Shown here piece by piece: positions 3,301 through 49,000 of a DNA stretch of 64,000 bases. Position numbers and translations under genes: made by a program. The notes under the pieces were generated by a model. That model was not told where the DNA came from. It did no database searches and saw nothing but the letters and a program-made list of their open reading frames with translations. Numbering within the stretch: position 1 is the first letter of the stretch; each line of letters starts with the position of its first letter. Source of the stretch: Schistocephalus solidus (taxonomy: Eukaryota; Platyhelminthes; Cestoda; Diphyllobothriidea; Diphyllobothriidae); assembly GCA_017591395.1 (NCBI GenBank), contig WEDG01000467.1:1-64000 (forward strand), in the 5' to 3' direction.

Positions 3301-4334
3301 GGGAACTACTTAGGTAAATTGGAACTGTTCAATCTATCTGTTGAAATTCACTGACTGTCTCTACCTAGACCGTCCGCGCTTTTACCTGTCAAATTGTGCA
3401 GACAGATTGAGCCACCTAAGGTAGTTTTAGGCGTCTTCGTCATCCATTCTCTCAGCTGCAGGCCCTAACTAGAATACCAGCATGGCAATAAAAGCTGCCA
3501 AGCTGTCTGCTAAGCAGCAGGCTCGGTAGAGTGGTTCTTGGCTCACCGTATTCGGTTTCCTCTACTGTACAATGGAGTATGTTGGGCCTGTTCTATCTGC
3601 TGTAAAAAAAGACCTTAGTGTATGTTTTCTTACTAATTTAAGGCGATTTAGTTTGCACCCACTCGATGTTTATGTCCTCGTGGGTGTATGGGTGTCAAGG
3701 ATAGGGCCGTCAATTTGATGATGATCATTTCACCCTGACCCCACCAGATACCCAGCTCGCAGGCGCTGCAACGCCAAACACAGCGATCCTATCTGTGTCG
3801 ATTGGCGATCGAAGCCAGGTGAGGTAGCGGTCGTGTTTTCTCACACGGTGGCCTTGACTGTGTTTCGGTTCAGGCAGTTGGGCAGGGCTAGCTGTGTTAT
3901 GGCACGCGTAGACGCTTCTTATTCGACATCGGTCAAGGTGTCTTGCCTTATTGGAATACGTCTTGTCCGTGGACTGCGAGGGGATCGGAAATCTCATGCA
4001 TATTTTTCAGGAGTAGACAATTTATGCGAGGCATCGTCATTAGCCATTTGTCTATGTGCATAAGGGGTTTAAAGCTGAATAGCAAGTTGCACTTTTGCGC
4101 CCTATGGGAGTATGATTGTGTCTTTTTATGTGGGGGAGAGCTCAAGATCTTAGTGCGTACTGTTGTAGCACCAGGTTGTCAGATCCTTCATTTGGCTTAT
4201 GATAACGCTTTATAAAATACAGTTAAGCCTCGGGTGGTGAGCATTTCAGGTACCGAGCGGGCCACTCGCAGAAACTTGGTTTAGCTTGACGAGCTTCCGC
4301 TCAGTTAACGAGTTGTCAATGTGTGTTTGTGGTC
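346..4334. other. Gene-free upstream DNA
   Basis: Only short unsupported frames are present. No RNA gene, splice-supported exon or repeat I can name was seen. Confidence 0.6.
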
Positions 4335-4470
4335 TACATTTAAGATTGGGTATGACTAACTGATAACGGATAATACAACAGAAATGGTCATTCCTGCCTC
4401 CCTTGTCTTTTTCGATATTCCATCATATGTATAAGCTACCAGTCACTATGTGACTGCCTGTGAGGGCTAT
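4335..4470 (+). repeat. Decayed dispersed copy of the satellite unit
   Basis: The stretch GATTGGGTATGACTAACTGAT, then CAGAAATGGTCATTCC and CTCCCTTGTCTTT, follows the order of the unit. It ends in a piece like ATGTGACTGCCTGTGAG. The ribozyme core has become CTGATAA. Confidence 0.75.
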
Positions 4471-4539
4471 AGATTTAGCCCCAAGACACTACGTGACAAG
4501 CATGCTCCGTAACTTAATTGGTGAGCGCCACTTCATCAT

Positions 4540-4737
4540 TGATATTACCGATCACAATCGACAAGACAACGTGTCCTTGGCTCATTGGTAGGGCGTTTGA
4601 CTCTGATCAAAGGTCGCGGGTTTGAATCCCAGGTGGTCCAAACTTGCGATTGGGTATGACTGCTTGTAAGCCAGAAATGGCCACTCCGATCTTTCTTTGT
4701 CTTTGTCAGTACTCCATCATGTGTATGCCTGTGTCCG
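4540..4737 (+). repeat. Dispersed copy of the SINE unit with tRNA-like head
   Basis: It contains TTGGCTCATTGGTAGGGCG and GGGTTTGAATCCC (A and B boxes), with an anticodon-arm-like TTTGA...TCAAA between them, then GATTGGGTATGACTG and CCAGAAATGGCCACTCCG. The ribozyme core between them is deleted. This single copy shows the family also occurs outside the array, as a mobile SINE would. Confidence 0.8.
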
Positions 4738-11454: not shown

Positions 11455-11548
11455 CCTGCCAGAAGACAAGGGAGACTGTACTGGCCATTTCTGCCTTGTT
11501 AACCGTCGTCAGCCGGTCATACCCAACCCCAGGTGGTGCACCACTCAT
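11455..11548 (-). repeat. Dispersed SINE unit fragment with decayed ribozyme core
   Basis: Read on the - strand it gives GGGTATGACCGGCTGACGACG, then GCAGAAATGGCCAGTACAG and CTCCCTTGTCTT. The core has changed from CTGATGA to CTGACGA and stem III no longer closes. It is followed by a (TTC)n run at 11557-11577. Confidence 0.75.
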
Positions 11549-20600: not shown

Positions 20601-22847
20601 TCATAAGGCAGGGCAGATAGGTACAGCCAGGGACCAATGTCCTGAAATGTTTACCTAAATCCGGAAATGCTTGTTCGATTAGGATAGATTACATAAGCGG
20701 GGTTGTAAGATTGATCATCGTGTGACATAATCCAATGATATTATAGATACGTCAAGATATCGGCTTTTGAATTCACCTCTTTTCCACAGGCTGCGAAAAC
20801 CGCACACGGTAAAAAAATGCCAAACTTAAATATCAGTCTTTTTTATTGATTTAACATGCCCTTATAAATTTATACGTTTTATAGAAAACCTGCTTAAAAG
20901 TATACTTTTTAGACCTTATTCGATAGCAAATAATGTCTCCTCTACATTTTATACCCGAAGAAATACAACTTTTCAGTTTGAAAATTTTCCAATCATTTTA
21001 TTTTTTTACTGTACAATGTCCATTCAAATTGATTCATGTCTGTTCATTTATTAATGCCCACCATGAGGTACACACCATAGTCCACACCCATTGCAAAATG
21101 TGGGGTATTTTCTTACTACCATAGATAAATTTGAATTTTCTTTACTTGGAAAGCCTACAGTTTGTAAATTGAAAACCCTAAACGCAGACAAGGCTGAAAA
21201 TAATACGAAAATCGGGCAACGTTTTTTAAAACCTAAACGTACCTTGTCTTAATCTGAAATTTGTAGGGGACGTGATTTTCAACCAAATGAGTAAAAGGAA
21301 TAATATTTTTGAGCATGTTTTCCATAAGAGATATTGCAAAATCAAAAATCAAAAATCAACAGAAACAATGCGTACGACCTAAGTAGTCATTTTTTACCGA
21401 GTGCGGTATTCGCAAGCAGCCGAAAAGACGTGTATTCAAAAGTCGCCATCTATATGTATCTGAAATATTATGGAATTGTGCACACGATAATCGATAAGAC
21501 AAACCCATGTAAACAATCTTTCCTAATCGAAAATGCATTTTGAATTTCGGTTAAGGTTTCACGAGGTCGGTGGTTGACTGTTGGTGCAGGAGCCTCTACT
21601 GAGGCAGAGAGTTTAAACGCGGCACTGCAATCAGTTGCAACGAACGTTATCTGGCCAGTCGGTGAAGAGGGAAATATCGATCGGCGTAATGGCACCGCAA
21701 CCTGGAGGTTTAGTCGCGCGTATTAGGTGGAACGAAGGCGACATAAGTAAGCGAGGACACTGACACCCATGAGAGCGGTTATCGACTGGCTCACCGGTGG
21801 CAGTTTACAAAAACAACATTGGACACACCCGAAGTAGAGAACATTAAACAGCTGCCAAACGCAAGACACTGATCTCAATTATTTTTTGAATTTGCTGCGC
21901 TTTTCCCTAGAGTTGCGAAAATTCCCATTAAAAGATTCAAAAGATGACTTGGTGAGCATACGCGCTGCTTTCGATAACTTCTCTTCAGGCCAGTACAGTT
22001 ATAGGGAAACGTTGGTACGCAGTAGAAATTTAAAACATGAAATCGATAATATTCATCCGTTTGTGTGGGTTGTCTGAGAGGAGGAGGATGATAAGAAACA
22101 GTGTGATAAGCGGCAGGGAGTGTTTGGTAGAGCTATTCAAGGGGAAGGGGGAGGACAGAGATGGCGCGGGAGAATGAATGCAGTTAAGCGGCCGTTGGCC
22201 AAGCTAAACGTGGAGCTTGTACGAGGTTCTTTTGTGCACACAAGACCGGCTTCTTCAACCTTATGAGAGTCACTTCTGCTGCTGCTAGTAGACGTTGACC
22301 CAGTGGCTTGGGGTAGTTTGGTGGGACCTTATAAATTACATGGAAAGCTTCGCTGGGGTCCACACTATGTCCGGTGTCAACAAGATGTGCAAGGATGGTG
22401 CTTTTTATGCTCTTGACTTCCCCTTTGTTCAGCCATGCTGGGAACTGTTCTCTTATTCTTTTTGGATAGGCGCCGACTCGTGCGACCAATATAACTTGCT
22501 CTACAGGAGCAAGTAAATGAGTAAATGCACATGGAGGTTGTCTGAGCCGGCAACCTATCCTTACCTTCACCTCGTAAAAGCGGGTTGTTTGAGAACACTT
22601 TTCCCTAGGTTGATTGGCGTTTGTCAGTGAGCCGCGTGTTTGTCGTTCTCAATATTAATCATTCTAAGCTCTGGAGGTGGTTTATGCACGGAGTTGCGCT
22701 GTGGCGGCTTTCACATATTCAATTATAATTCGCTTTCAGCTTTCAGGGCAACTGGTGTCACCGTCGGGAATTAGTGGCGGATCAGGCCTCTTTCCTTACA
22801 GCCCGTTGCTATGTTGTTTAATGTAATACAGATGGCGGGATCAGTCA

Positions 22848-22888
<41 letters not shown>

Positions 22889-25800
22889 CACATCTTATGC
22901 TCATACACAGTGCTGGACAATACATCCGGTAATGAGTGCGCTCATAGCTTTCGGCCGGTCATTTTCTCGAAATACGCGTGCCATTTAGACTTCATTTATT
23001 CCAGTATGCAAGCATAACGGACTACACAGACAGTGCAATCGTATTCTGAGCTCTTTCCGACTATTGCCCCAGCGCCACCAACTTTGAAGTCCCTTTGACA
23101 CACCCATGTTGTCGATACAGTCTTCTACCTTGCTTTTCTGTAGACAGTTGCAGTCTTGTGTTTATGATGGTAGATATTCTTCTTGAAACAGGGTTGTTTT
23201 TGCCTTCTCGTTCGCCTACAGCCATTGTTTCTTTCTATTCAGTTGCACTGCTGCCAACTATATATATGAAGACGCACTTCTATACGGACATCGTTCAGCG
23301 GTTCACCTTTCCTCCAAACTCTACCGAGAGTGAAAGTTTCAAGGTCATTAACAATCAGGAGGACATGTGGAAAGTGCGTTTTTTGTATAAATTCCATGCT
23401 ACAATGACAACTCTCCACGATCTAAGGGCCTCATTAAGCGGTTGCAGTGGTTGGCGCTTTTACGAATGGTAGGAAGCACCAAGTAATATGTCATACTGGA
23501 AACAGCTCGTTATTGTGTAAGGTTACTTGGATGCTGCATCTCGACAACTGTCGTTCTGATATCTCGACAGTTTTTTGCTTTTCGTTTTAAATCTCATATG
23601 GTATTCATGGATCGAAGCGACTTTAGGTGTGTTTTATTCCAGCAAACGTTTTCATGTTATTGTGTCCGAATCCCAGTTAAGTTATTGGATTATTTCTTAT
23701 TTCGGTTTGATGTAGACCAGGGCACGGATATGAGAGGGGGACGTGGTGCCTTGGAGCTCACTTTAGAGCCCTCTCGCGGGCAGTCGAATTGCGAATTAAG
23801 GTATATTATGATAAGGTGGAACCGACAAAGACAAGGGAGACCGGAATGGCCATTTCTGGCTTATTAGCCGTCATACCCAATCCCAAGAGTGGCACACCTG
23901 GGATTCGAACCCATGACCTTTGGTAATTGAGTTGAACGCTCTACAATTGAGCCATGGGCTCGTTTTTTGTCAGTTGCGATCGGGAATATGATGATAGTGC
24001 ATTGCTCACCGATCTGATTAAGGAACATGTCTGTTCCGTTGTGCCCTGGATCTCAGACTAGAGCCCTTGCAGGCGGTCGCATAGCGACATGTAGCATTTG
24101 TTGATAGAAAAGGAATCGACAAAGACAAGGGAGACCGGAGTGGCCATTTCTGAGTTATAAGCCGTCATCAGCCAGTCATACCCAATCCCAAGTGTAGTAT
24201 AACTTGGATTCCAGTCTCCCTTGTCTTTGTCGGTTCCTTCTTATCAACAAATGCTACATGTCGCTATGCGACTGCCTGTGAGTACTCTAGTCTGAGTTCC
24301 AGGGCACAACGGAACATAAATGTTCCTTAAGCAGATCGGTGAGCCACACACTATCATCATATTCCCGATCGCAACCGACAAAAGCAACGAGCCCGTGGCT
24401 CAATGGTAGTGTGTTCGACTAAATTACCAAAGGTCGCGGTTTCGAATCCCAGGTGTTCCACACTTGGGATTGGGTATGACTGGCTGATGACGGCTAATAA
24501 GCCAGAAATGGCCATTCCGGTCTCCCTTGTCTTTGTCGGTTCCAAATTATCAACATATGCTACACGTCGCTATGCGACTGCCTGTGAGTACTCTAGTCTG
24601 AGTTCCAGGGCACAACGGAACATAAATGTTCCTTAAGCAGATCGGTGAGCCACACACTAATCATCATATTCCCGATCGCAACCGACAAAGCAACGAGCCC
24701 GTGGCTCAATGGTAGAGCGTTCGACTCAAATACCAAAGGTCGCGGGTTCGAATCCCAGGTGTTCCACACTTGGGATTGGGTATGACTGGCTGATGACGGC
24801 TAATAAGCCAGAAATGGCCATTCCGGTCTCCCTTTTCTTTGTTGGTTCCAAATTATCAACATATGCTACACGTCGCTATGCGACTGCCTGTGAGTACTCT
24901 AGTCTGAGTTCCAGGGCACAACGGAACATAAATGTTCCTTTAAGCAGATCGGTGAGCCACACATAATCATCATATTCCCGATCGCAACCGACAAAAGCAA
25001 CGAGCCCGTGGCTCAATGGTAGAGCGTTCGACTCCAATACCAAAGGTCGCGGGTTCGAATCCCAGGTGTTCCACACTTGGGATTGGGTATGACTGGCTGA
25101 TGACGGCTAATAAGCCAGAAATGGCCATTCCGGTCTCCCTTGTCTTTGTCGGTTCCAAATTATCAACATATGCTACACGTCGCTATGCGACTGCCTGTGA
25201 GTACTCTAGTCTGAGTTCCAGGGCACAACGGAACATAAATGTTCCTTAAGCAGATCGGTGAGCCACACACTATCATCATATTCCCGATCGCAACCGACAA
25301 AAGCAACGAGCCCGTGGCTCAATGGTAGAGCGTTCGACTCAAATACCAAAGGTCGCGGGTTCGAATCCCAGGTGTTCCACACTTGGGATTGGGTATGACT
25401 GGCTGATGACGGCTAATAAGCCAGAAAATGGCCATTCCGGTCTCCCCTTTGTCTTTGTCGGTTCCAAATTATCAACATATGCTACACGTCGCTATGCGAC
25501 TGCCTGTGAGTACTCTAGTCTGAGTTCCAGGGCACAACGGAACATAAATGTTCCTTAAGCAGATCGGTGAGCCACACACTATCATCATATTCCCGATCGC
25601 AACCGACAAAAGCAACGAGCCCGTGGCTCAATGGTAGAGCGTTCGACTCAAATACCAAAGGTCGCGGGTTCGAATCCCAGGTGTTCCACACTTGGGATTG
25701 GGTATGACTGGCTGATGACGGCTAATAAGCCAGAAATGGCCATTCCGGTCTCCCCTTTGTCTTTGTCGGTTCCAAATTATCAACATATGCTACACGTCGC

Positions 25801-28800
25801 TATGCGACTGCCTGTGAGTACTCTAGTCTGAGTTCCAGGGCACAACGGAACATAAATGTTCCTTAAGCAGATCGGTGAGCCACACATAATCATCATATTC
25901 CCGATCGCAACCGACAAAAGCAACGAGCCCGTGGCTCAATGGTAGAGCGTTCGACTCAAATACCAAAGGTCGCGGGTTCGAATCCCAGGTGTTCCACACT
26001 TGGGATTGGGTATGACTGGCTGATGACGGCTAATAAGCCAGAAATGGCCATTCCGGTCTCCCCTTTGTCTTTGTCGGTTCCAAATTATCAACATATGCTA
26101 CACGTCGCTATGCGACTGCCTGTGAGTACTCTAGTCTGAGTTCCAGGGCACAACGGAACATAAATGTTCCTTAAGCAGATCGGTGAGCCACACACTATCA
26201 TCATATTCCCGATCGCAACCGACAAAAGCAACGAGCCCGTGGCTCAATGGTAGAGCGTTCGACTCAAATACCAAAGGTCGCGGGTTCGAATCCCAGGTGT
26301 TCCACACTTGGGATTGGGTATGACTGGCTGATGACGGCTAATAAGCCAGAAATGGCCATTCCGGTCTCCCTTGTCTTTGTCGGTTCCAAATTATCAACAT
26401 ATGCTACACGTCGCTATGCGACTGCCTGTGAGTACTCTAGTCTGAGTTCCAGGGCACAACGGAACATAAATGTTCCTTAAGCAGATCGGTGAGCCACACA
26501 CTATCATCATATTCCCGATCGCAACCGACAAAAGCAACGAGCCCGTGGCTCAATGGTAGAGCGTTCGACTCAAATACCAAAGGTCGCGGGTTCGAATCCC
26601 AGGTGTTCCACACTTGGGATTGGGTATGACTGGCTGATGACGGCTAATAAGCCAGAAATGGCCATTCCGGTCTCCCTTTGTCTTTGTCGGTTCCACATTA
26701 TCAACATATGCTACACGTCGCTATGCGACTGCCTGTGAGTACTCTAGTCTGAGTTCCAGGGCACAACGGAACATAAATGTTCCTTAAGCAGATCGGTGAG
26801 CCACACACTATCATCATATTCCCGATCGCAACCGACAAAGCAACGAGCCCGTGGCTCAATGGTAGAGCGTTCGACTCAAATACCAAAGGTCGCGGGTTCG
26901 AATCCCAGGTGTTCCACACTTGGGATTGGGTATGACTGGCTGATGACGGCTAATAAGCCAGAAATGGCCATTCCGGTCTCCCTTTGTCTTTGTCGGTTCC
27001 AAATTATCAACATATGCTACACGTCGCTATGCGACTGCCTGTGAGTACTCTAGTCTGAGTTCCAGGGCACAACGGAACATAAATGTTCCTTAAGCAGATC
27101 GGTGAGCCACACATAATCATCATATTCCCGATCGCAACCGACAAAGCAACGAGCCCGTGGCTCAATGGTAGAGCGTTAGACTCAAATACCAAAGGTCGCG
27201 GGTTCGAATCCCAGGTGTTCCACACTTGGGATTGGGTATGACTGGCTGATGACGGCTAATAAGCCAGAAATGGCCATTCCGGTCTCCCTTTGTCTTTGTC
27301 GGTTCCAAATTATCAACATATGCTACACGTCGCTATGCGACTGCCTGTGAGTACTCTAGTCTGAGTTCCAGGGCACAACGGAACATAAATGTTCCTTTAA
27401 GCAGATCGGTGAGCCACACACTAATCATCATATTCCCGATCGCAACCGACAAAAGCAACGAGCCCGTGGCTCAATGGTAGAGCGTTCGACTCAAATACCA
27501 AAGGTCGCGGGTTCGAATCCCAGGTGTTCCACACTTGGGATTGGGATATGACTGGCTGATGACGGCTAATAAGCCAGAAATGGCCATTCCGGTCTCCCCT
27601 TTGTCTTTGTCGGTTCCAAATTATCAACATATGCTACACGTCGCTATGCGACTGCCTGTGAGTACTCTAGTCTGAGTTCCAGGGCACAACGGAACATAAA
27701 TGTTCCTTAAGCAGATCGGTGAGCCACACACTATCATCATATTCCCGATCGCAACCGACAAAAGCAACGAGCCCGTGGCTCAATGGTAGAGCGTTCGACT
27801 CAAATACCAAAGGTCGCGGGTTCGAATCCCAGGTGTTCCACACTTGGGATTGGGTATGACTGGCTGATGACGGCTAATAAGCCAGAAATGGCCATTCCGG
27901 TCTCCCTTGTCTTTGTCGGTTCCAAATTATCAACATATGCTACACGTCGCTATGCGACTGCCTGTGAGTACTCTAGTCTGAGTTCCAGGGCACAACGGAA
28001 CATAAATGTTCCTTAAGCAGATCGGTGAGCCACACACTATCATCATATTCCCGATCGCAACCGACAAAGCAACGAGCCCGTGGCTCAATGGTAGAGCGTT
28101 CGACTCAAATACCAAAGGTCGCGGGTTCGAATCCCAGGTGTTCCACACTTGGGATTGGATATGACTGGCTGATGACGGCTAATAAGCCAGAAATGGCCAT
28201 TCCGGTCTCCCTTTGTCTTTGTCGGTTCCAAATTATCAACATATGCTACACGTCGCTATGCGACTGCCTGTGAGTACTCTAGTCTGAGTTCCAGGGCACA
28301 ACGGAACATAAATGTTCCTTAAGCAGATCGGTGAGCCACACACTATCATCATATTCCCGATCGCAACCGACAAAAGCAGCGAGCCCGTGGCTCAATGGTA
28401 GAGCGTTCGACTCAAATACCAAAGGTCGCGGGTTCGAATCCCAGGTGTTCCACACTTGGGATTGGATATGACTGGCTGATGACGGCTAATAAAGCCAGAA
28501 ATGGCCATTCCGGTCTCCCTTTGTCTTTGTCGGTTCCAAATTATCAACATGTGCTACACGTCGCTATGCGACTGCCTGTGAGTACTCTAGTCTGAGTTCC
28601 AGGGCACAACGGAACATAAATGTTCCTTAAGCAGATCGGTGAGCCACACATAATCATCATATTCCCGATCGCAACCGACAAAGCAACGAGCCCGTGGCTC
28701 AATGGTAGAGCGTTCGACTCAAATACCAAAGGTCGCGGGTTCGAATCCCAGGTGTTCCACACTTGGGATTGGATATGACTGGCTGATGACGGCTAATAAG

Positions 28801-31800
28801 CCAGAAATGGCCATTCCGGTCTCCCTTGTCTTTGTCGGTTCCAAATTATCAACATATGCTACACGTCGCTATGCGACTGCCTGTGAGTACTCTAGTCTGA
28901 GTTCCAGGGCACAACGGAACATAAATGTTCCTTAAGCAGATCGGTGAGCCACACATAATCATCATATTCCCGATCGCAACCGACAAAAGCAACGAGCCCG
29001 TGGCTCAATGGTAGAGCGTTCGACTCAAATACCAAAGGTCGCGGGTTCGAATCCCAGGTTTTCCACACTTGGGATTGGATATGACTGGCTGATGACGGCT
29101 AATAAGCCAGAAATGGCCATTCCGGTCTCCCTTGTCTTTGTCGGTTCCAAATTATCAACATATGCTACACGTCGCTATGCGACTGCCTGTGAGTACTCTA
29201 GTCTGAGTTCCAGGGCACAACAGAACATAAATGTTCCTTAAGCAGATCGGTGAGCCACACACTATCATCATATTCCCGATCGCAACCGACAAAGCAACGA
29301 GCCCGTGGCTCAATGGTAGAGCGTTCGACTCAAATACCAAAGGTCGCGGGTTCGAATCCCAGGTGTTCCACACTTGGGATTGGATATGACTGGCTGATGA
29401 CGGCTAATAAGCCAGAAATGGCCATTCCGGTCTCCCCTTTGTCTTTGTCGGTTCCAAATTATCAACATATGCTACACGTCGCTATGCGACTGCCTGTGAG
29501 TACTCTAGTCTGAGTTCCAGGGCACAACGGAACATAAATGTTCCTTTAAGCAGATCGGTGAGCCACACATAATCATCATATTCCCGATCGCAACCGACAA
29601 AAGCAACGAGCCCGTGGCTCAATGGTAGAGCGTTAGACTCCAAATACCAAAGGTCGCGGGTTCGAATCCCAGGTGTTCCACACTTGGGATTGGATATGAC
29701 TGGCTGATGACGGCTAATAAGCCAGAAATGGCCATTCCGGTCTCCCCTTGTCTTTGTCGGTTCCAAATTATCAACATATGCTACACGTCGCTATGCGACT
29801 GCCTGTGAGTACTCTAGTCTGAGTTCCAGGGCACAACGGAACATAAATGTTCCTTAAGCAGATCGGTGAGCCACACACTATCATCATATTCCCGATCGCA
29901 ACCGACAAAGCAACGAGCCCGTGGCTCAATGGTAGAGCGTTAGACTCAAATACCAAAGGTCGCGGGTTCGAATCCCAGGTTTTCCACACTTGGGATTGGA
30001 TATGACTGGCTGATGACGGCTAATAAGCCAGAAATGGCCATTCCGGTCTCCCTTGTCTTTGTCGGTTCCAAATTATCAACATGTGCTTCACGTCGCTATG
30101 CGACTGCCTGTGAGTACTCTAGTCTGAGTTCCAGGGCACAACGGAACATAAATGTTCCTTAAGCAGATCGGTGAGCCACACATAATCATCATATTCCCGA
30201 TCGCAACCGACAAAGCAACGAGCCCGTGGCTCAATGGTAGAGCGTTAGACTCAAATACCAAAGGTCGCGGGTTCGAATCCCAGGTGTTTCACACTTGGGA
30301 TTGGATATGACTGGCTGATGACGGCTAATAAGCCAGAAATGGCCATTCCGGTCTCCCTTGTCTTTGTCGGTTCCAAATTATCAACATATGCTACACGTCG
30401 CTATGCGACTGCCTGTGAGTACTCTAGTCTGAGTTCCAGGGCACAACAGAACATAAATGTTCCTTAAGCAGATCGGTGAGCCACACATAATCATCATATT
30501 CCCGATCGCAACCGAAAAAGCAACGAGCCCGTGGCTCAATGGTAGAGCGTTAGACTCAAATACCAAAGGTCGCGGGTTCGAATCCCAGGTGTTCCACACT
30601 TGGGATTGGATATGACTGGCTGATGACGGCTAATAAGCCAGAAATGGCCATTCCGGTCTCCCTTGTCTTTGTCTGTTCCAAATTATCAACATGTGCTTCA
30701 CGTCGCTATGCGACTGCCTGTGAGTACTCTTGTCTGAGTTCCAGGGCACAACAGAACATAAATGTTCCTTAAGCAGATCGGTGAGCCACACATAATCATC
30801 ATATTCCCGATCGCAACCGACAAAAGCAACGAGCCCGTGGCTCAATGGTAGAGCGTTAGACTCAAATACCAAAGGTCGCGGGTTCGAATCCCAGGTGTTC
30901 CACACTTGGGATTGGATATGACTGGCTGATGACGGCTAATAAGCCAGAAATGGCCATTCCGGTCTCCCTTGTCTTTGTCTGTTCCAAATTATCAACATAT
31001 GCTACACGTCGCTATGCGACTGCCTGTGAGTACTCTAGTCTGAGTTCCAGGGCACAACGGAACATAAATGTTCCTTAAGCAGATCGGTGAGCCACACATA
31101 ATCATCATATTCCCGATCGCAACCGACAAAGCAACGAGCCCGTGGCTCAATGGTAGAGCGTTCGACTCAAATACCAAAGGTCGCGGGTTCGAATTTCAGG
31201 TTTTCCACACTTGGGATTGGATATGACTGGCTGATGACGGCTAATAAGCCAGAAATGGCCATTCCGGTCTCCTTTGTCTTTGTCGGTTCCAAATTATCAA
31301 CATGTGCTACACGTCGCTATGCGACTGCCTGTGAGTACTCTAGTCTGAGTTCCAGGGCACAACAGAACATAAATGTTCCTTAAGCAGATCGGTGAGCCAC
31401 ACATAATCATCATATTCCCGATCGCAACCGACAAAGCAACGAGCCCGTGGCTCAATGGTAGAGCGTTAGACTCAAATACCAAAGGTCGCGGGTTCGAATC
31501 CCAGGTGTTCCACACTTGGGATTGGATATGACTGGCTGATGACGGCTAATAAGCCAGAAATAGCCATTCCGGTCTCCCTTGTCTTTGTCGGTTCCAAATT
31601 ATCAACATGTGCTACACGTCGCTATGCGACTGCCTGTGAGTACTCTAGTCTGAGTTCCAGGGCACAACAGAACATAAATGTTCCTTAAGCAGATCGGTGA
31701 GCCACACATAATCATCATATTCCCGATCGCAACCGACAAAGCAACGAGCCCGTGGCTCAATGGTAGAGCATTAAACTCAAATACCAAAGGTCGCGGGTTC

Positions 31801-34800
31801 GAATCCCAGGTGTTCCACACTTGGGATTGGATATGACTGGCTGATGACGGCTAATAAGCCAGAAATGGCCATTCCGGTCTCCCTTGTCTTTGTCGGTTCC
31901 ATTCCATCATATGCTACTCGTCGCTCTAGTCTGAGCTCCAGGGCACAACGGAACATGCATGTTCCTTAAGCAGATCCGTGAGCCCCACACTATCATATAT
32001 ATATATATATATATATACGGCAAATACGTTATACCGTACTTCCGACATAGGTTCTAGCTAAAAGCCCAGACACACATGTGTGAGGCAGCAACGAGGTGTT
32101 TGGCTCCAGTGGGTCCCCCAGAGTTCTCTATGCGGTTTCTGGTATATGAACTCCAGAGATAATCAGGGAAATAAGTTCTGATATAAGTATGTGCAGGACA
32201 TGGATTTCAGTGACCGGGACATAAATGTTTAGGGGAAAAAATTAACTACCACGCTAGTAATACGCAAAATAGCACTATTTTGTGACAGGCAGAATTTGTG
32301 GAACAAAAAAGAGATAATGTCTTATTAACTTCATAGATGACGCCATTCATTACCATGGAAGAATGAAAACGATAATTTTGTTTTCGTTTAGAAAAGTAGT
32401 CAATTGTTCCTACAGCAGCATAAAATAGGTGAAAGTGAAGAGGAAAATTCTGTTTTCGTTCAAAAGCGGGCCAGCCATTAAATGACTGGTTCAGTTGACG
32501 GAGACGATGTTCTAATTCGGTTCGTTAATTTAGCCCATAGTCCTTCTATATTTCTATTCAAAGGCTGGTAAAGTAGATTTCAGGCTTATTTGCTCGCTTT
32601 AGCAGGAGGGCTAATGATTAGTTTTAAATTTTTAAACAAAGACAGAGCAAATTTTCCTGCTCCAAGATATCACCTCTTTTTTTATCCTATCATTTTGGGC
32701 ATAACTTCGACGGGTCCTTATTGGTTGAACTTCATAATCCCTCTCCTCTTTTTATAACAGATTTTCTTTCAAAATTTATCCATCGTATTATCTCAGCTGC
32801 TCGCACCGCATTTTTTGTCTTTTTTCTCTTCCCCCTCTCTGTTATCCACATGCCCGCACTGCTGATCCTCGCTCCACTTTTATGCCTGACCATAAGGCCA
32901 AGATCCCAGGCATTACTTCTAACTTTTTAACGCTTTTGCTCTTATTTATGACTTAAAAAGCAAGCTTATCGCGTTCATAAAATGTGTATACCAAAAGCTG
33001 AAAGCCCGCAGCCTGCGTGACTGATTTCCGAGGATAACTGGCATACCCATTTCACTTTAAAGCTGAGATAAGAATTCTGATTGTTAACTATCATAAACTT
33101 ATGCCTCCCTCTCCGATTGCTTTAGTATATTCGCAGTGGTATGTTAGCAGCACTCTACGTCAACGGACAGGAGACGCGTGAGAATGGGGACACAGAGTTT
33201 CACATTGGGACCGATAACAAGCTCGTGGGTAGACCACGCATTCGGCAAGTCGCAGTACGCAGCGTTGAGTGTGCCCTCCCAAATAGCCTGAAAAAACAAG
33301 TACGCCTTTGTTACCCGAACTTCGACGCGAAATTCGAAAGTACGGCCAAGTTGGAGCCTAAATTTGGACAAAACCTCACCTACAGCACGCGCGCGTAAGA
33401 TGTCTTTATATGTGACTACTTACTATTAAAACGTAGACAATTTTTGGAAAATAAACTCAAATACCCTATAGTCATTAACCAGGCTTTGGACGTGAAATCG
33501 ATAGGCGAATTTGGATCCTAAAAATCAGTAAGCTCTTGAAAAAACTTACAGATATATATGGAAATATTTTGTTTGCAGGTCAGGCATCGTTGTTCGAATA
33601 ACGTGGCCCTACTAGTTGACTTTTTAGACTACCAAATGTTGCAAAAATACCTAAATATCATGGAAGTCCGCATTATTTTCTTTGAATTTTACAATGACTG
33701 ACAAAACACCACCCACCTGACCATTTGTGCTCGAATTATTCCGATATTTAAACATTGAATCCAATCTGAGGAAAAGAAGAAACGATGGGACTTGAAAATC
33801 AGAATGTATATATTGATTTTAGCGGTGTCTTCCAGTCCAGTTAAGTATTTTGGTAATCACCGAGGCACAATCTAGGAAATAAATGCTGCAAAATCCAAGA
33901 ATCTGAATGTTACGTCACTCATTTTCATTTCCGAAGGCTAAAGCACTATTGAAATAAAATGCACTAAATATTACTTTGGGAGTGTCCGTATTCCCTTTGT
34001 GTGGGTGCCGGAGTTTAGAAGCATATATGGCAATTACACCAAATATTTTATGGCCCTGGAAGAGGAGGTATTAAATTATGCACTGATTACCAGTTGCTGT
34101 TAATTATAAATCAGTATTTAGGTTGATGGGCAGTAAAGCTCAATATATGCACACTTATCTTGGTAAATTGCATCTCACAACGCAAAGGCATTTGCTCGAT
34201 ATTTTTTCTAGCTATCACTGAAATTCATAGTCACAGAAAATGCTACGAAATTTGCACAGTTTCATCAGTGAGTACGTATGCTTTTTGCCTTCGTCATTTT
34301 CCTAGAAGTAATGAACATCGAATTTATTTTTTTATAGTCCATTTGTTGGCAAATTACACCCTCATATTATTTTGTCATGGGTTTTCCATTTAAATTATGT
34401 TTGTGATAGTTGAAGTTTGTAAAATAAAGTCATCAAATTATTCATGTTGTAAAAGACTTTCTGTTGTATTAATCAAAAGAACTTAGTTTAAAAGCCCAAA
34501 TCCTATCTACGGCATCTTCCTATGAGCAGCAGGATACATCTTACTTCATATGTGAAACTAAGTTTGATTTTGCGCCATTGAAAACAGATAGCATATAAAA
34601 ATTTGGCCTTTAAAGAACACTTTCAAATGCAGGTTGTGCACCCACTGGTCACAGGATTCGACGGACTCGGTTAAAACCGATCCACTTGCTTCCTTTAACC
34701 GTTGAAAGTGAGAACGATATTTTCTAAAGTATGAAAACAAAATACAGTTTAGGAAATTTTCAACTTTTGGCAGCAGACCCGAAAACAGCTTTTTTCGTTC

Positions 34801-37800
34801 TGTAAACAAAACTAGACCAATGTTTTATGACACTCAGCTCCTAAATTTAATTAGTGAATCATTTTAGGCCTCTCTTTTTAAACCCACCTACAGACCATTG
34901 TAAATACTCAAAACTGGTATTTAAAAATGAATTATTTCTGCAAAGCAGTTTAAATATGTTTAAATTCGAAACCTTAGGTCACCCTGCATTGACTTCCTTT
35001 GAAATATCAGGTCGATTTTGCGAGCTGTTTGTTGGTAGCTCATTGATGTGACCACGAGCCAACAAAACTCGCAATTTTCTCCAAGTTAAACTCTTGTCAG
35101 GTCAGAAATTTACGTTTTCGCTCGATAAGACGTGGCTTGTCGTAAAGCCTTCTTTTCCCTTACAGTTGGACTTGGAGTAGTGTGGAGGAGGTCGGTAGTG
35201 GAAGAATCGATGGAGACATTACAAGTTACCCGGGATCCGGCTATTTTATTGACCTATCCACGGAAAGGAACGTGACGGAAGCAATACTGGAAGAGCTATT
35301 TAGAGGACTTTGGACGACCAAGGCCACGCGGGCGGTTATAATTGACTTTACGCTCTACAACGCTAATCTGAACCTCTTCTGCATTGGTCGGCAAGTTCAC
35401 TGTCGTTAAACATCTAAATCTGTTACTATTTATAATATTTAAGTAGAATCTAATTATGTTTTTTATTTGTGCACTCATCCACAGAATTCTTTTTGAAACG
35501 CCTTACACCGGTGGAGTAATCAGCTCAGCCGTTTTTCGACCTCTACGTCTGCTTCTTGGGACTGGTGTCACAACTAAGTGTGTGTTTACGTGTGAGATTA
35601 TTACTCTGGCCTTCGTACTCTATTTCGTCATTGAGGAAATTCTGGAGGTAGGTTATTCCACCAGTCTGCTTCTTTTTGCTAAACGTGTTAGCTGGAGTTA
35701 AACAGAAGCCCACTTGAGGACTAGTTTCAATTTTCTCTCTCATCACTGAAAATTGGCGGGCAGCATAGAAGAGTGTGTGACTATTGAAATGCCTAATTTC
35801 CTGGCGAAAGTCATGGCTACTAGAAACGAAAGAACTCGCGTATGTGAAAAGCCATAAGGAGACTTACATACCATCACAGTCCTTGTGGGCAATTGCTGAA
35901 AAAATCAGCATTTACCTGTAGCCGCCTGTAATGGTGGCAACCACAAGGTGATGAGGAAACCCAGATGAAACTGGAGACTTCCCTGTATGGACGCCTTTAT
36001 ACAGCACAAAGATCAGATCCGAAAGCCTCAAATTAAAGCGCAGACTGGTCAGATTGAGCATACCCTCAATCTTCAAGGAACAGCATGGTTTCAAATGGCA
36101 TCGGAGTGAACTGGCCCATCGACAAGTCTTAAGTGTACCGAGTATTGCCTCAACGTATCATCAGAGGACAAACCGTCTGGCCATGTTGGACTTACCGAGA
36201 ACAGAAGGAGGAGCGAGGACACACGATTTGAAACTTAATGTAACCAACTGGGGAATTCGATTCGTCACCAGCCCAGCCAGTCCGATTGGTCAGCCTGAAA
36301 GCTTGTCACACAGGCACGTCCGCATTACCTCTAAAGCATCACGGAGGTGGCTACAGACATTTAATATACGAAGACCGAGAAAATTCAGCTGGGGTTACAA
36401 AGATATAGAAAGCGGAGTAGCACTGACCGGTCCAGTAGACAACGAAAAATGAAGTGACCACTTCACTAGATATAGACGGTCAGGCGTAGTGGTCAAACTG
36501 ACGCTTACCGAGGAGTTCTCATAACCCACTTGTAGCCAATCGCAATTAAGAACGTGAGAGTTTCCGTTCCTGTGGACTCATCAGTTTACATGGCAAAATA
36601 TCTTATTGACCACAGAATGGTCCGGTACTACACGAATCTGATCATTAAGCTGTCATCTATGGAGGTCCAGGTTTATATTTTATGAGGAGTGAAGGCGTGA
36701 CAAATGTGAATTTCGAACTGACACGAAAACCCCGAACGCAAACAGGTTCCGCAAGTTAAGCTCAAAAACAAGGCTGAGAGTTAAATTTCCTCTACCTTGA
36801 AGCACGTACAGAGATGATTTTAGATGCGCGATCGATCAAACGAACGCTAGCAAATCATAAATAAATGGCACAACTTCAACGGGTCATTCCTTTATTGCGT
36901 TAGAGTGCTCCGACTGTTGCTAACGAACGCGAACGCGGGTGCGTTGAGCTCAAAGTGCCGATCAGTGCACCAAGACGGTGCGACAAGGCGCACATTGACA
37001 AACTTGTAACCACCGGTCTGTGAGAGCAGGAGAACATTTTTGCTTTTATAGTAATGGTGTGCCCAAATAAGCACGATCACGATTCCATGACAGAATGAGA
37101 TCACATGCTAATTCAGGCAGTAGCTAAATAATCATCTAGGTACGTTAACTGCCGGTGCTCTGAAATCTGGCAAACAGATAAACACGAAAAATAAAACGGC
37201 ATATTTCCCCTTCTACAGATTAGAGAGAGAGAGCTCCTGGAACCCACATATTGCTCATACCAATGAAGGCAACAGAAGGCAGCCAATATAAACGACCATC
37301 GTCTAGTTGTGGTTCGCCGAAGTTAGTAGTCTTGAGTTGCAAAATGCATTAGCGAGAAAGCTGGTAGAAATTGGCAGCAGGACGAAAGCACATTGGAGGC
37401 TCTAAAGTGAGCTCCAAGGCACAGTGGGACATACATTTTTCCCATTGCCGCACAGTATCGTATATAAACAACGAGATGTTCCACTTCCGCTTACATGGAA
37501 ACAAAACAAAGATATAAAACCAATGTTTGGATACTTAAGCTACTATCGGTACGCGCTGACTACCCTGTCTCTTCAGTTTTATTTATATGCTATACACTGT
37601 TCAGTCTGTAATACGGTCGATTTCCTTTTATTTTGGTTTTACTATATAATGTTCGTAAATATGCGGGATTATTATCGGAGGCGTCAGAGGTTTAGGCGTT
37701 CTTCAACCTTGACTGCCTGCAGGATTTACAATCGTTATCCAATACTTTCTTCTTGGTTACAGATTAAACACTTGGGACTTGCATACTTCAGGAAGTTTTG

Positions 37801-40800
37801 GAATCTTCTCGACTTTACAGTAGTTGCTTTCAGCCTCACTTGTGTGATTCTGCATTGTTATGGGTACATCATCTCCTTCAAACTCCTGGGAAACGGCGTC
37901 ACGGCGGACGCTGTTTACCCCGAATTCATAGACATCGCATACTGGTGCCTGCAGTACAACCGCATGTTGGCTCTCTTGGTCTTTTTCGCCATGATTAAGG
38001 TGGGCTGAACTTAAGTGGTTTCTGCATAATGCCTGCGCTATGTGTGCATATACACGCATCCACCACTAACTTCTATCAACAGCTTTTCAAATTCGTCAGC
38101 TTCAGTGAGACCATGGGACAATTGACGGCAACACTGAGCTACGCCATCTACGATCTTACCGGCTTTACTGTTATGTTCGGCATCGTATTCTCCGCCTTTG
38201 TTCAGGCTGGATATCTCATGTTTGGCCGCAGTAGTTTCGAGTTCTGTACGTTCTCGCAAACCGCGTAAGTTATTGTATGTACGTACTTTCACCAAATTCC
38301 CTGCTCTCATCCTTTTTTCTCTTCTAATTCAAGCAATAACAACCCGAAATGCAGTATTTTTTGCGTAAAGGAGTACCGTAAGTCCAAGGAACTTTTGCGC
38401 CATTTATTGATGGAAAGAAAATAGATGAAAAGGAAGAGGCATGGCTTTTGGAAAGGGAATTTTATTCGAGTCCATTCGCAGAGACAGTAGCCCAAACAGA
38501 AAAGGGCTACACTTATAGGGAGTAGAAACCAATGGATGATCAGTGAGGCAAGTCTAGAGGTGACTGCATATGGCGGCGCCAAAGCAATACAACAATTGCT
38601 TGAGTTCCCATACAGGCTTCAAAACAACTCTCAGGTCATCTTGCGTCCGGCGTGGACGGTTATATCGACTAATAGGAAGTTCAACTCATGTCCCGTCTCA
38701 TAGGTGTGGACAGCCACTTGCGATAATTCACCACCCCCTCACACAGCCAGGTTCAGTTCACTTTAGTTGAGAGAAATTTATGTGTGCACGTTTAAATTCC
38801 CTATTTTTTGATGCAGCATTTGGAGATATGTGTATGCATGTACAGTCGATAGTAGAATGCGTTCTGTCAGCCATGTGTAGTTGCAAGGACAGTTTAGGCA
38901 AGAGATATGAAAGTATTTGCCTGATATCACAATCGAACCAAACACTAGAGAGGCCTCTGATGATGATGATGATGAGGAGGGGGAGGAGAAGAAGAAGAAT
39001 AAAAGGAAAAAGAATGAGAGGGAAGGACGGTGGCGACTGTGGACTTAGTGAGGGATGGTCTCGAGAGGTGGTCAGTCGCGTAAAACAGTGCATGATACGA
39101 AAGGGGAACCTTTAAATTTAAGCGATAGGAACAACACTTTTTAGCCCTGGGTCCTGTGTGAGAGGACTCACTGGCAGAGAACAACCTGCTTGTTTCTCGG
39201 CAGAAATTTCACGATGTTGCATTTGGCTCATCGTCGATAAAAAATGTTGCATAACAGAAGAGCTGGTGGGAGGACAGTAGGTTCTGCTGTACTGACCCTT
39301 ATCCAGGCACCTGTTGCAAAGTTGCGCCTCTTGCAGGCACTTGCATGCGCGCACCAGAGGTAGCCTGGTTCTCAGCCAATCATGGCTGTGCAAACCAGTC
39401 AATCATCCTCAAGTTCGACCCGGACTTCCCCCCGCCCCATCTGTAACCCTCGGGGTGCCGTTCTCGTGCCTCCAATGCGCTCTAGTCCTGCTGCCAACTT
39501 CTAGCAACTTTTTCGTCAATATTTATGTACAGAGTAAAACATCCTCCCAACTTTCGTGATCGGGCCTGAAGATCCCCTAGCAGCTGGGGTTTACCCCTAT
39601 GGCTTTTGCAGGCACGGCAACGCCTTCGACGGAAGTGCAAATGCGAGTAGTCTTATGAATCTCTCTCTGTTTTGGATTTGTGTCCATCTTTTCTGCCGAT
39701 GACTGATGTTTTATTTCGTCGTAGAACGAACAACGACATCTAATATTAGGTGTTTAATGGGTGATCGGACTTGAAACGCACCGTGATTATTAAATGCCTT
39801 CGTTTCTTGCCATTATACTTCTTGTGCAACCAACCACAAATCTAGCGTGATCGGTCGAAGCCAAGATTTCTAGGGGTACTGCCGCTAGTAAGACAATTTC
39901 CGCCTCAAATTCACGAATGGACCTCACTAATAAAGTAAGACCGTTAGTACTGCACTTCTATAGATGGTCCGTTATCCGATATGTTCTTGTTCTATAAATC
40001 CTCTCATGCTTTAAATAGCAATTTAACAGACATGGCATCTTAACCTCTAATATTCTGAACCGTTTCGAAATAAAAAGGTCAAAGACTAGTAGGCTTTACC
40101 AAAAACAACAACGGCTGAAGCGAAGCCAATTTCTGATCTAATGGTTCGGAGAGCGCCCAAGGTTAGGGGGAACCTAACTGGAATAAGACTGTAAGAATCT
40201 TTTAGTAGGTATATGAACCAGGCATATCTACATATCCGCATATCTGCATAACAACCGACCAAAAACCTTCAAGTAACAGGTGATGTGAAACTTCCAATTC
40301 GGGATATACCTAGCCAGGATTATCGCCGCTACAAAAAATGACTAACACCTTCTGATAATGCTATCTTTTTACACTAAGTTTATCTATCTGCATTTACAAG
40401 GTTCGTTCTTTATCGTATCATCCTCGGCGACTTTGATATGGAGGCAATCAAAGCCGCCCATTCCACACTTGGTCCCCTCTACTTCATCATTTACATCTTC
40501 TTCGTCTTCTTCGTTCTCCTCAACATGTTTCTGGCAATAATTGGAGAGGCCTATTCCAAGGTGAAGGATCGCATGGCAAAGCGAACTAATGACTTCAAAA
40601 TGATGGGCTACCTGCGTCAGGCAAGACTTTTTTGACCAATTGATGAATGTATTTACTATTGTCTATCGAAAAGTAGTAAAGTTTATTACAATTATTTGTG
40701 CGAATAGACGATCAACGACTTCATGGACAAAGTGACGGGAAAAAATCGGATTCCACTGGACCAAGTTCTCGCTTCCGCCAGCATGCACGAGCAACTAGCA

Positions 40801-46063: not shown

Positions 46064-49000
46064 CTAGGACAACCGGAATCAAGCAGAATAAAAATGTGTA
46101 CTGTGGGGGAAAATGAAGCCCGTCGTTGACTTCTGCTGGCACACTCTTTAAGAGACAGGGTTACTGAGTCTAGGGTATAGTAAGCTCTGCAAGACCATCA
46201 GTAAGTTCTTTTATCATCGAGGCATTAGCTGCATAGGAGCCTAAAATTACACATGGAGGATGCCTGAGTGTTTGCATAAATGTAACAATAGTCCAGTAAG
46301 TAAGGCAGATTACCCGGAAACCACTGTGAGAAGTTAAACGCGTCAGCTGAAATCCTGTTCGGGAAGTGGGGGGTGGGAGGTATTAACATTTTGATCACGA
46401 GAAATTAATTAATATAATATGCTTATTCTACCAAAACGTAATTAAGAGAAGGTCAGCTGGGCGCTCGAGGACTGTCTAGCATACGGTAGTCGAGTTCACA
46501 ACACATTTCACAAGGGATAACTAACAGTGTCTGAAACAGAGATCAGAGCCCCAATACTTGTCAAAATTAAGCGAAAAGTGTCGGCCATAGTCTAAGGTCA
46601 GTCAAGGAATGCGTGGAGAGATGACAAATAAAACTATGATTCACGAATTTTCCACGGTTGCGAAAGCCAGTGAATTAATAAATAACCGAATTTGCATCCA
46701 CACACAAATCCCTATAAAAATAGTATTGACTATATGTGAGTAACAGTGTAATTGTATATAAATTAGTCATGAGGAGGGGCAATGCCCATCACCAGGATGC
46801 CTGGTGGAATCGCCCCGCAACAAACGAAAGCAGGCTAAAGGCCCCAGCCACAATTTAGGATGCACGTGGCAAAGTACACCGGAGATATTAGTCCTGATGG
46901 CAGAAGCTAGCGTATGGTTATCTCCAGCGCAGGTTGTATTTTGCGGTCTGACTTTGGCGGCAGGGAATTCAACTGCCAGTATCTTCAAACCCATCTACCT
47001 TTAGGTAATGCCAAACATAACGGAAAACTCGCTTTCTAAATACGGAGAAAAACTGCCGAAGGAAAATCGGGCTGCGCCCTGCAGGCAAGTAAACAACCGA
47101 TCCCCCGAAAATTGCTAAAATTAGGTAAAAAAACTGTCGGCCAGAGTTTACAAGTTAAAAGCGCCTGTTAAAATGAACTGTATGAACATTGGATGTAAAA
47201 TTCCCTGACCCGTGAAATTGACCGTTTCCCCCATCCCCAGTGCCAAGGTAAAAAGCCATCCAGTGTGCGCACATTTTCTCTCACTTTGGCGGTAACCGCA
47301 CGAACAGTGGTACTTATAGACATTACTGCCTGTGCTAAGCGATATAGTGCACACTACCTTAACCCGAAAAACGAAATCGACACAAATCTCAGTTGGTCGA
47401 TTTCAAAAGCGCGAGACTGCTCGCAGAATAAGTCGTCACGAGCAGGATTTGAACCTGCGCGGGGAAACCCCATTGGATTTCGAGTCCAACGCCTTAACCA
47501 CTCGGCCATCGTGACACAAGAAATCACGTCAAGTAATTATTCCATGGCGTGTTCTAGACACCCAGTCACACCCATATCGCCAAAAGGCCACGAAAATCTA
47601 GATTAGACAGATTTCACTGCAATATCACACACACACACAATCACCTGGCTTAGGTGGGGCCCCGAAGTCAAAATTTTTCGGTTGTCTATCGATCCATGAA
47701 AAACCATCTTAGTTTACTCCCTCTTCATACAAATGTCCGCATGTTCGACGCTGCCATCTAAAAGAAACGGACGGTTATTTTCAATCTACTGCATGCTTCC
47801 GTCTACCTTGACCATCAAACGTCCCCACACAGCTCCGTTCCTCCCTAGCTTGGATAAGTAAACTCCCCTTAAAGTGGGGTCTCAAATCAGAAGAGTTGAT
47901 TTGAGATTAAAATATTTTAAACTTAAATATATGAAGTACAGACTTACGAAATTTCAGACTCAGAACGAAGAGGATACATGCTTTGCTATATTAATCACAA
48001 ACTTTAGGATAAGAAATCATGTGTATTGAATTATTATCATGCTTACTTATGAATCTAAGTTTGAGTAGAGCATTGCGTCACGTAAAATGATGCTGAATAA
48101 CGACTTACGAACATTTTGAGTTACGACGGGCCTTTCGGAACGTAAGTTGGGAGTGTCTGTATTTCTGACGTTTCAAATGTGTAGCATTGAAGAGGAGGAG
48201 ATCAGGCATGCTGCACATGGACATTGAAACACCTTATTCGCTCTTGAAAATTAGTTTGCGAAACGCTAATTTATCCACGAGTATCGGATTCCTTGTTGCC
48301 AATTATATTCTGGTGAAAATCCTCTTTTCTTCAGAAAAAAATGGCACCGTTGTCTCCGGAGCATGGAATAACTTCATCCAGAAGTTTGACGTCTCAAGCT
48401 ACATTCGATTTTTTGAACAAATGATGGTACACGAGGCTGGGAAAGCTGTCAAACGTGTTAAGTGTGAAGACATTTGCAAAGTGACTACTTTCTAAGTACT
48501 GGGGTTACGACACCCCTGAATCCTATATTTCAGGAGCCTACCTCCCGATTCATCAGGAGAATAATAAAAACAGGTCAGTCGGGAGGTCACATGCTAGACG
48601 CCTCGACGTCGCCAACACCCGGCACTGCCGAGGCCCTGAACAGAGAAATTCGATCCTGTTTTACTACATGAACGGACGGAGAAGGCAGTAGTGAGCGGTC
48701 ATCGCTGAAGGAATTAGTTTATGGGGCAACTGAGAAACCCATGGATATAATCGGCGACGAAGCAGTAACTAGATCAGCATAAGAACCCTGTAGTTGTCTA
48801 CCCAGAAGGCTCGAGCCAGGTTCTGCAACGACGCTTCCTTCCACCAACTCCGAAAGATGACCAGAAGAAATATTGGGCTAAAATAGCAACTTCAATGGGA
48901 CACTCAAAAACTCTATCAAATTATCCGCCAAATTAGACATAAGCCCTCGATACTTAGAGACTCTGTTTGCGATGTGAATGGCAGCTTTATTGCTGACATC

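Follow-up and report, generated by a model that had tools for sequence, protein, structure and literature searches.

The closest described systems to the repeat reported here are the schistosome elements Sm-alpha and Sj-alpha, which resemble short interspersed nuclear elements (SINEs) and carry hammerhead ribozymes (PMC2770079, PMC8490949). Sm-alpha derives from the transfer RNA (tRNA) for Gln and its hammerhead is found by the Rfam model (PMC2770079), and among the metazoan hammerhead repeats analysed in PMC4918200, a full tRNA was present only in those of schistosomes. Metazoan non-long terminal repeat (non-LTR) retrozymes form a related kind, with type I hammerheads in tandem repeats of ~150-450 base pairs (bp), guanine plus cytosine (GC) content under 50%, and strongly self-paired RNA; platyhelminths are among the holders of retrozyme-like repeats, and no tapeworm is named in the text covered (PMC7229834). 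Here we describe a tandem array in a 64,000-nucleotide stretch of DNA, probably from a tapeworm (positions 1 to 64,000 of contig WEDG01000467.1, hereafter the window). With moderate confidence, we read the array as 25 copies of an element in which a tRNA-like promoter and a hammerhead motif are combined, likely a SINE-type non-LTR retrozyme in which neighboring hammerheads would jointly cut once per unit. The tapeworm repeat is a new case of the kind to which Sm-alpha and the metazoan retrozymes belong, and it combines two unusual traits: stem II has a C.A mismatch at its foot, and a palindromic helix III that lacks a loop accompanies a tRNA-type promoter.

Tandem Repeats Finder reported the array at 24208-31925 (period 306, 25.2 copies, 98% matches) as the sole long array in the window. 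Splitting it gave 25 units of 305-310 bp with a mean pairwise identity of 0.976 (minimum 0.935) and an array GC of 0.490. The sequence-only reading of this DNA had claimed a hammerhead-like motif in essentially every unit with all invariant core bases present, and both claims held. When one-base variants are allowed, the layout GACTGG-CTGATGA-CGGCTAATAA-GCCA-GAAA-TGGCC-ATT-CCGGTC occurs in 25/25 motifs, and the unit that was measured reads GACTGG-CTGATGA-C-GGCTAATAAGCC-A-GAAA-TGGCCAT-T-CCGGTC, so that its elements follow one another as in a type I hammerhead. CTGATGA, GAAA, and the ATT at the predicted cut are kept in all 25 motifs, as is the type I core as a whole (CUGANGA, GAAA, pair 15.1-16.1, H17, and an open stem I). 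From TATGACTGG to CCGGTCTCC, 22 of the 25 motifs are identical and the remaining three have one change each, namely an additional A behind GAAA (core at 25403), an additional A within loop II (28476), and a G to A change in the palindrome of stem III (31536). Six base pairs make up stem I, with an internal loop (UAU/U) beyond it, and stem II has 4 bp over the C.A mismatch and is closed by loop II, AAUA. Helix III is the 8-nucleotide (nt) palindrome ATGGCCAT, which can pair over 4 bp with no loop or over 2 bp that enclose a GGCC loop. The cut is predicted after the ATT at 24516, the position given by the earlier reading, and at its equivalents in the other units.

The SINE-like character that had been proposed for the unit is supported by the Rfam tRNA model, which matched 24 of the 25 units at an expectation value (E) of up to 10, with 8 units reaching its cut-off and a best score of 35.7 bits. 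Two short stretches in the unit fit the box consensus, and we take them to be the A box and the B box. ARAGORN found no tRNA in three unit heads at default settings; at lowered stringency, they were called Leu(CAA), Arg, or unassigned. In the one unit measured, 28 nt lie between the end of the B box (24755) and the start of stem I (24784), close to the 25 or so bases claimed earlier. The head is joined to a motif of hammerhead order, and the unit thus has the combination of RNA polymerase III (Pol III)-type head and type I hammerhead seen in an Sm-alpha-type SINE.

For a lone motif (one was computed), the predicted minimum fold has -16.3 kcal/mol versus -7.7 for the hammerhead, and it pairs the core GAUG with CAUU at the cut. 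Stem I survives in the lone minimum fold of 24/25 motifs. We also folded motifs in pairs, 24 of them neighboring and one joining the last motif with the first, and in 23/25 pairs the two-motif fold is a double hammerhead, with stems I formed in trans and both ATGGCCAT palindromes making one helix III. Both failing pairs contain the 31536 motif, and such pairs cannot pass because the test requires AUGGCCAU on both strands. Judged from these folds, the ribozyme probably works as a dimer and not as a single type I ribozyme. The type I assignment made in the sequence-only reading stands for the element order and the core, which all 25 motifs have, and fails for the base pair at the foot of stem II and for recognition by Rfam; a dimer is predicted in place of the single ribozyme. 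As a circle, the 306-nt consensus unit has a minimum free energy of -107.4 (z score -5.6 versus 200 dinucleotide shuffles) with 65% of its bases paired, which is the strong self-pairing expected of metazoan non-LTR retrozyme RNA. The hammerhead is absent from the minimum fold of this circle.

When compared with Sm-alpha and Sj-alpha, the tapeworm unit shares a flatworm host, a tRNA-derived head, the type I hammerhead order, and a high copy number form (PMC2770079, PMC8490949). Unlike Sm-alpha, it is likely from a tapeworm, carries the C.A mismatch at pair 10.1-11.1, lacks a loop on its palindromic helix III, and is matched by no Rfam hammerhead model. Sm-alpha cuts as a single motif, unlike the dimer predicted for the tapeworm unit. 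This likeness is one of kind, and the unit is not assigned to that family. The array also resembles the metazoan non-LTR retrozymes. Its 25 units have the type I hammerhead and the 150-450 bp tandem repeat size, subject to the C.A mismatch, and its GC of 49% is below the 50% given in the text of PMC7229834 but above the 45% of the figure legend. Self-pairing is above 70% in the examples of PMC4918200, versus 65% here. The unit also differs in its visible tRNA-type promoter, a feature that PMC4918200 notes for schistosome repeats alone, and circles of its RNA are predicted. In amphibians, hammerheads whose helix III is weak and palindromic cleave poorly as single motifs and better as dimers (PMC7229834). 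The satellite hammerheads of newt and axolotl are alike in this helix and in their dimer action, and axolotl HHR_Amex2 also has a mismatch at the foot of stem II (PMC7229834, PMC6155905). There, however, the mismatch is U.U and not C.A, and the descriptions covered give no tRNA-like head. Penelope-like elements likewise contain tandem minimal type I motifs that are thought to cut as dimers (PMC7761336), but these lack helix III or loop contacts, whereas the tapeworm unit has an 8-nt palindrome and no joined Penelope coding region. Kinship in kind with Sm-alpha and the retrozymes, as proposed earlier, is thus supported. The suggestion that the element may be undescribed in its lineage also agrees with our finding no tapeworm hammerhead in the literature searched, which left out most subscription papers and the retrozyme supplements, and the latter may list tapeworms.

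From transcription onward, we infer the cleavage, circles, and mobilization of the unit RNA. Pol III would start in the tRNA-like head and read through several units, which is possible because TTTT is absent from 21/25 units. Paired neighboring hammerheads would then cut after ATT and release 306-nt RNAs that end in a 5'-OH and a cyclic phosphate, which a host tRNA ligase such as RtcB could circularize; RtcB is known to circularize retrozyme RNA in vitro (PMC7229834). We propose that the circles would stay uncut because a motif on its own adopts an inactive fold. A Penelope-like or other non-LTR element may supply the reverse transcriptase that copies round the circle, and tandem units, each with its own promoter, would be inserted into the genome. 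Retrozymes already described from animals follow such a course, those of amphibians as dimers (PMC7229834). Penelope elements make up ~10% of the genomes of the diphyllobothriids Sparganum and Spirometra (PMC8166898).

Relatives of the unit were found in two places. The 98-residue open frame of one unit had four matches, all from Schistocephalus solidus (word-based search, 4 candidates scored), a member of Diphyllobothriidea. When set against 25262-25558 of the window, these database "proteins" (P0007-P0010) prove to be the translated tRNA-plus-hammerhead repeat; they are annotated as Secreted protein, Uncharacterized, TPP_enzyme_N, and Copine domain-containing, and Pfam gave no match in any of the four at E up to 0.1. 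Together they display five motif copies, of which one is partial. When trimmed by hand to the stretch that matches, they differ from the window at 3/72 residues over the motif codons and at 32/264 outside. The motif differences spare the catalytic core. Two of the three fall on the ACG codon, whose middle base is nucleotide 10.1, where P0008 and P0007 imply U and A, and the third lies in loop II. The partner, nucleotide 11.1, occupies the last position of a proline codon and is not readable from protein. In P0007, two motifs stand 101 codons apart, and S. solidus therefore has tandem or motif-body-motif copies, unless the gene model fuses separate pieces. The flatworm host proposed earlier is supported by frame matches, which narrow it to a likely diphyllobothriid tapeworm; we rejected a fluke as the host. 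Within the window, three dispersed copies lie outside the array (A, B, and C in the table). A and C have the motif-body-motif form, and all five hammerhead sites in the three copies are broken by substitutions or deletions, with none passing the loose descriptor explained below. The starts of A (4329), B (11535), and C (24211) fall between the B box and the hammerhead, at nearly the same unit position. The head of copy A scores 20.6 bits versus the Rfam tRNA cut-off of 29, and at 4574-4642 this copy retains a paired anticodon stem, TTTGA/TCAAA, that the array units have lost while keeping their A and B boxes.

Several results weigh against a working retrozyme. The covariance-model check that the sequence-only reading had proposed came out negative, with no match to the Rfam hammerhead families at gathering score over the window and none, with E relaxed to 10, over the array or on a single 66-nt motif; this negative stands without a known dimer-type hammerhead as a control. 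The C-A mismatch that the same reading had named as its doubt is real, as pair 10.1-11.1 is C.A in 25/25 motifs and not Watson-Crick. Natural U.U exceptions occur at this pair, and U.U allows more cleavage there than any other mismatch (PMC3088659), so by analogy C.A should cleave less well. In the predicted dimer, A14 is paired with U17 at the cut, which would need to open. The energy gained by dimerization is not special, since 36/200 mononucleotide shuffles gain equally, and we rejected it as evidence by itself. Fisher's test puts the stronger conservation over the motif in the S. solidus translations at the border of significance (p 0.052). The starts of copies A, B, and C lie at unit positions 246, 254, and 237 and not at the cut, and a direct-repeat search around copy A found no clear target-site duplication. 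That selection keeps the units free of TTTT was considered and dropped, as the lack is not significant (P of none 0.45). The left edge of the array coincides with the predicted cut; we rejected it as proof of cleavage because the head-to-head junction with inverted copy C has four bases in common, at 24208-24211.

The explanation that competes best with an active retrozyme, although we consider it unlikely, is that the hammerhead once worked and the array is now an ordinary satellite growing by unequal exchange, its C.A motif no longer cutting usefully. The universal C.A, the absence of an Rfam hammerhead match, and the five broken sites out of five in copies A, B, and C all fit a relic of this sort, and with units this similar (0.976), conservation within the array is little proof. 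An inactive motif should, however, gather core changes where an array turns over fast, whereas 25 young copies retain an intact core, both stems, and the cut triplet, and the independent S. solidus copies differ outside the core only. Natural hammerheads also tolerate U.U at the very place of the mismatch (PMC3088659, PMC7229834).

A likeness to the hammerhead that arose by accident, in a plain tRNA-derived SINE turned satellite, is by contrast highly improbable. A strict descriptor of the whole hammerhead, with the mismatch allowed, recovered 24/25 motifs (the one missed has the extra A) and matched nowhere else on either strand of the window or in 40 megabases (Mb) of random sequence from an order-1 Markov model of the window outside the array. 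A looser descriptor gave 3 matches in 4 Mb, and beyond the array it found nothing in the window. From these counts, the probability of a chance origin in one 306-bp unit, on both strands, is well below 1 in 1000. The descriptor was designed once the motif had been seen, the 25 copies are kin and hence one event, and covariance-model support is absent, all of which leave some room for accident; the S. solidus copies, however, also keep the core. In a search for relatives elsewhere, one exact pattern occurred 0 times in viral_contigs and 0 times in genome_contigs, both of which are non-animal collections.

If the retrozyme reading is correct, it may be extended, and we hold the extension only tentatively and think it doubtful that all of its parts are true together. 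It would make the motif a tandemness-sensing ribozyme in a tRNA-promoted SINE, of a design that recurs or persists in flukes and tapeworms, with a functional C.A. The lone motif would lock itself (GAUG:CAUU), so self-cutting would need RNA of two or more units, and a released unit, once circular, would be safe from its own ribozyme. The pairing of tRNA promoter and hammerhead would have arisen repeatedly, or have persisted, in flukes (Sm-alpha) and tapeworms, and the ribozyme would work despite C.A at a pair that is held nearly invariant.

The remainder of the window contains pieces of mobile elements and host genes. A GIY-YIG-type frame at 22184-22648 (-) forms a remnant 1.1 kb from copy C. 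GIY-YIG is a mark of Penelope-like elements. The best match of this frame is from Schistocephalus solidus (83% over 60% of the query), and its five matches comprise three from S. solidus, one from Spirometra, and one from Echinostoma, with the tapeworms ranking ahead. UniRef names two of these relatives as Penelope-like; Pfam made no call on the window frame and reached E 0.066 at best on one relative. The copy looks broken because its upstream half runs on in another frame (22377-22604). Pieces of non-LTR retrotransposons, with endonuclease and reverse transcriptase frames, lie at 61236-63735 (-) and 49036-49731 (+). Host gene pieces include a protein-kinase frame at 58303-58671 (-) and a polycystin-type channel frame at 37406-38008 (+), the sole match of which, at 77% over 45% of the query, is from Dibothriocephalus latus. 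At 47432-47516 (-) lies a regular tRNA-Ser (CGA) gene. A minus-strand CTGATGAGTCC at 36584 was considered as a further hammerhead and rejected, as it fails the loose descriptor.

Table. Positions of the array, representative parts of its units, and related copies in the window
Feature	Position	Strand	Basis
Array of 25 tandem units, 305-310 bp	24208..31870	+	Repeat finding, unit cutting
First hammerhead motif, predicted cut after 24516	24478..24522	+	
tRNA-like head of one unit	24695..24765	+	Rfam tRNA model
Putative A box TGGCTCAATGG, same unit as head 24695..24765	24702..24712	+	Box consensus
Putative B box GGTTCGAATCC, same unit as head 24695..24765	24745..24755	+	Box consensus
Second hammerhead motif (example repeat copy)	24784..24828	+	
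25th, final hammerhead motif	31835..31879	+	
Diverged partial last unit, ends in (AT)n run; its start completes the 25th hammerhead	31871..32000	+	
Dispersed copy A (old; 1.3 units), hammerhead sites at both ends broken	4329..4716	+	
Dispersed copy B (old), broken hammerhead region alone	11463..11535	-	
Copy C (inverted; 1.57 units), facing the array head to head, both hammerhead sites broken	23742..24211	-	

Annotation that relies on libraries can miss sequences of this kind, and gene builds turn them into false proteins. To the question of how the hammerhead repeats of animals are transcribed, kept circular, and moved, a simple answer that can be tested is offered by a unit whose Pol III-type promoter is visible and whose ribozyme is predicted to act only as a dimer. 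Such a unit would also extend the composites of SINE and hammerhead from blood flukes to tapeworms.

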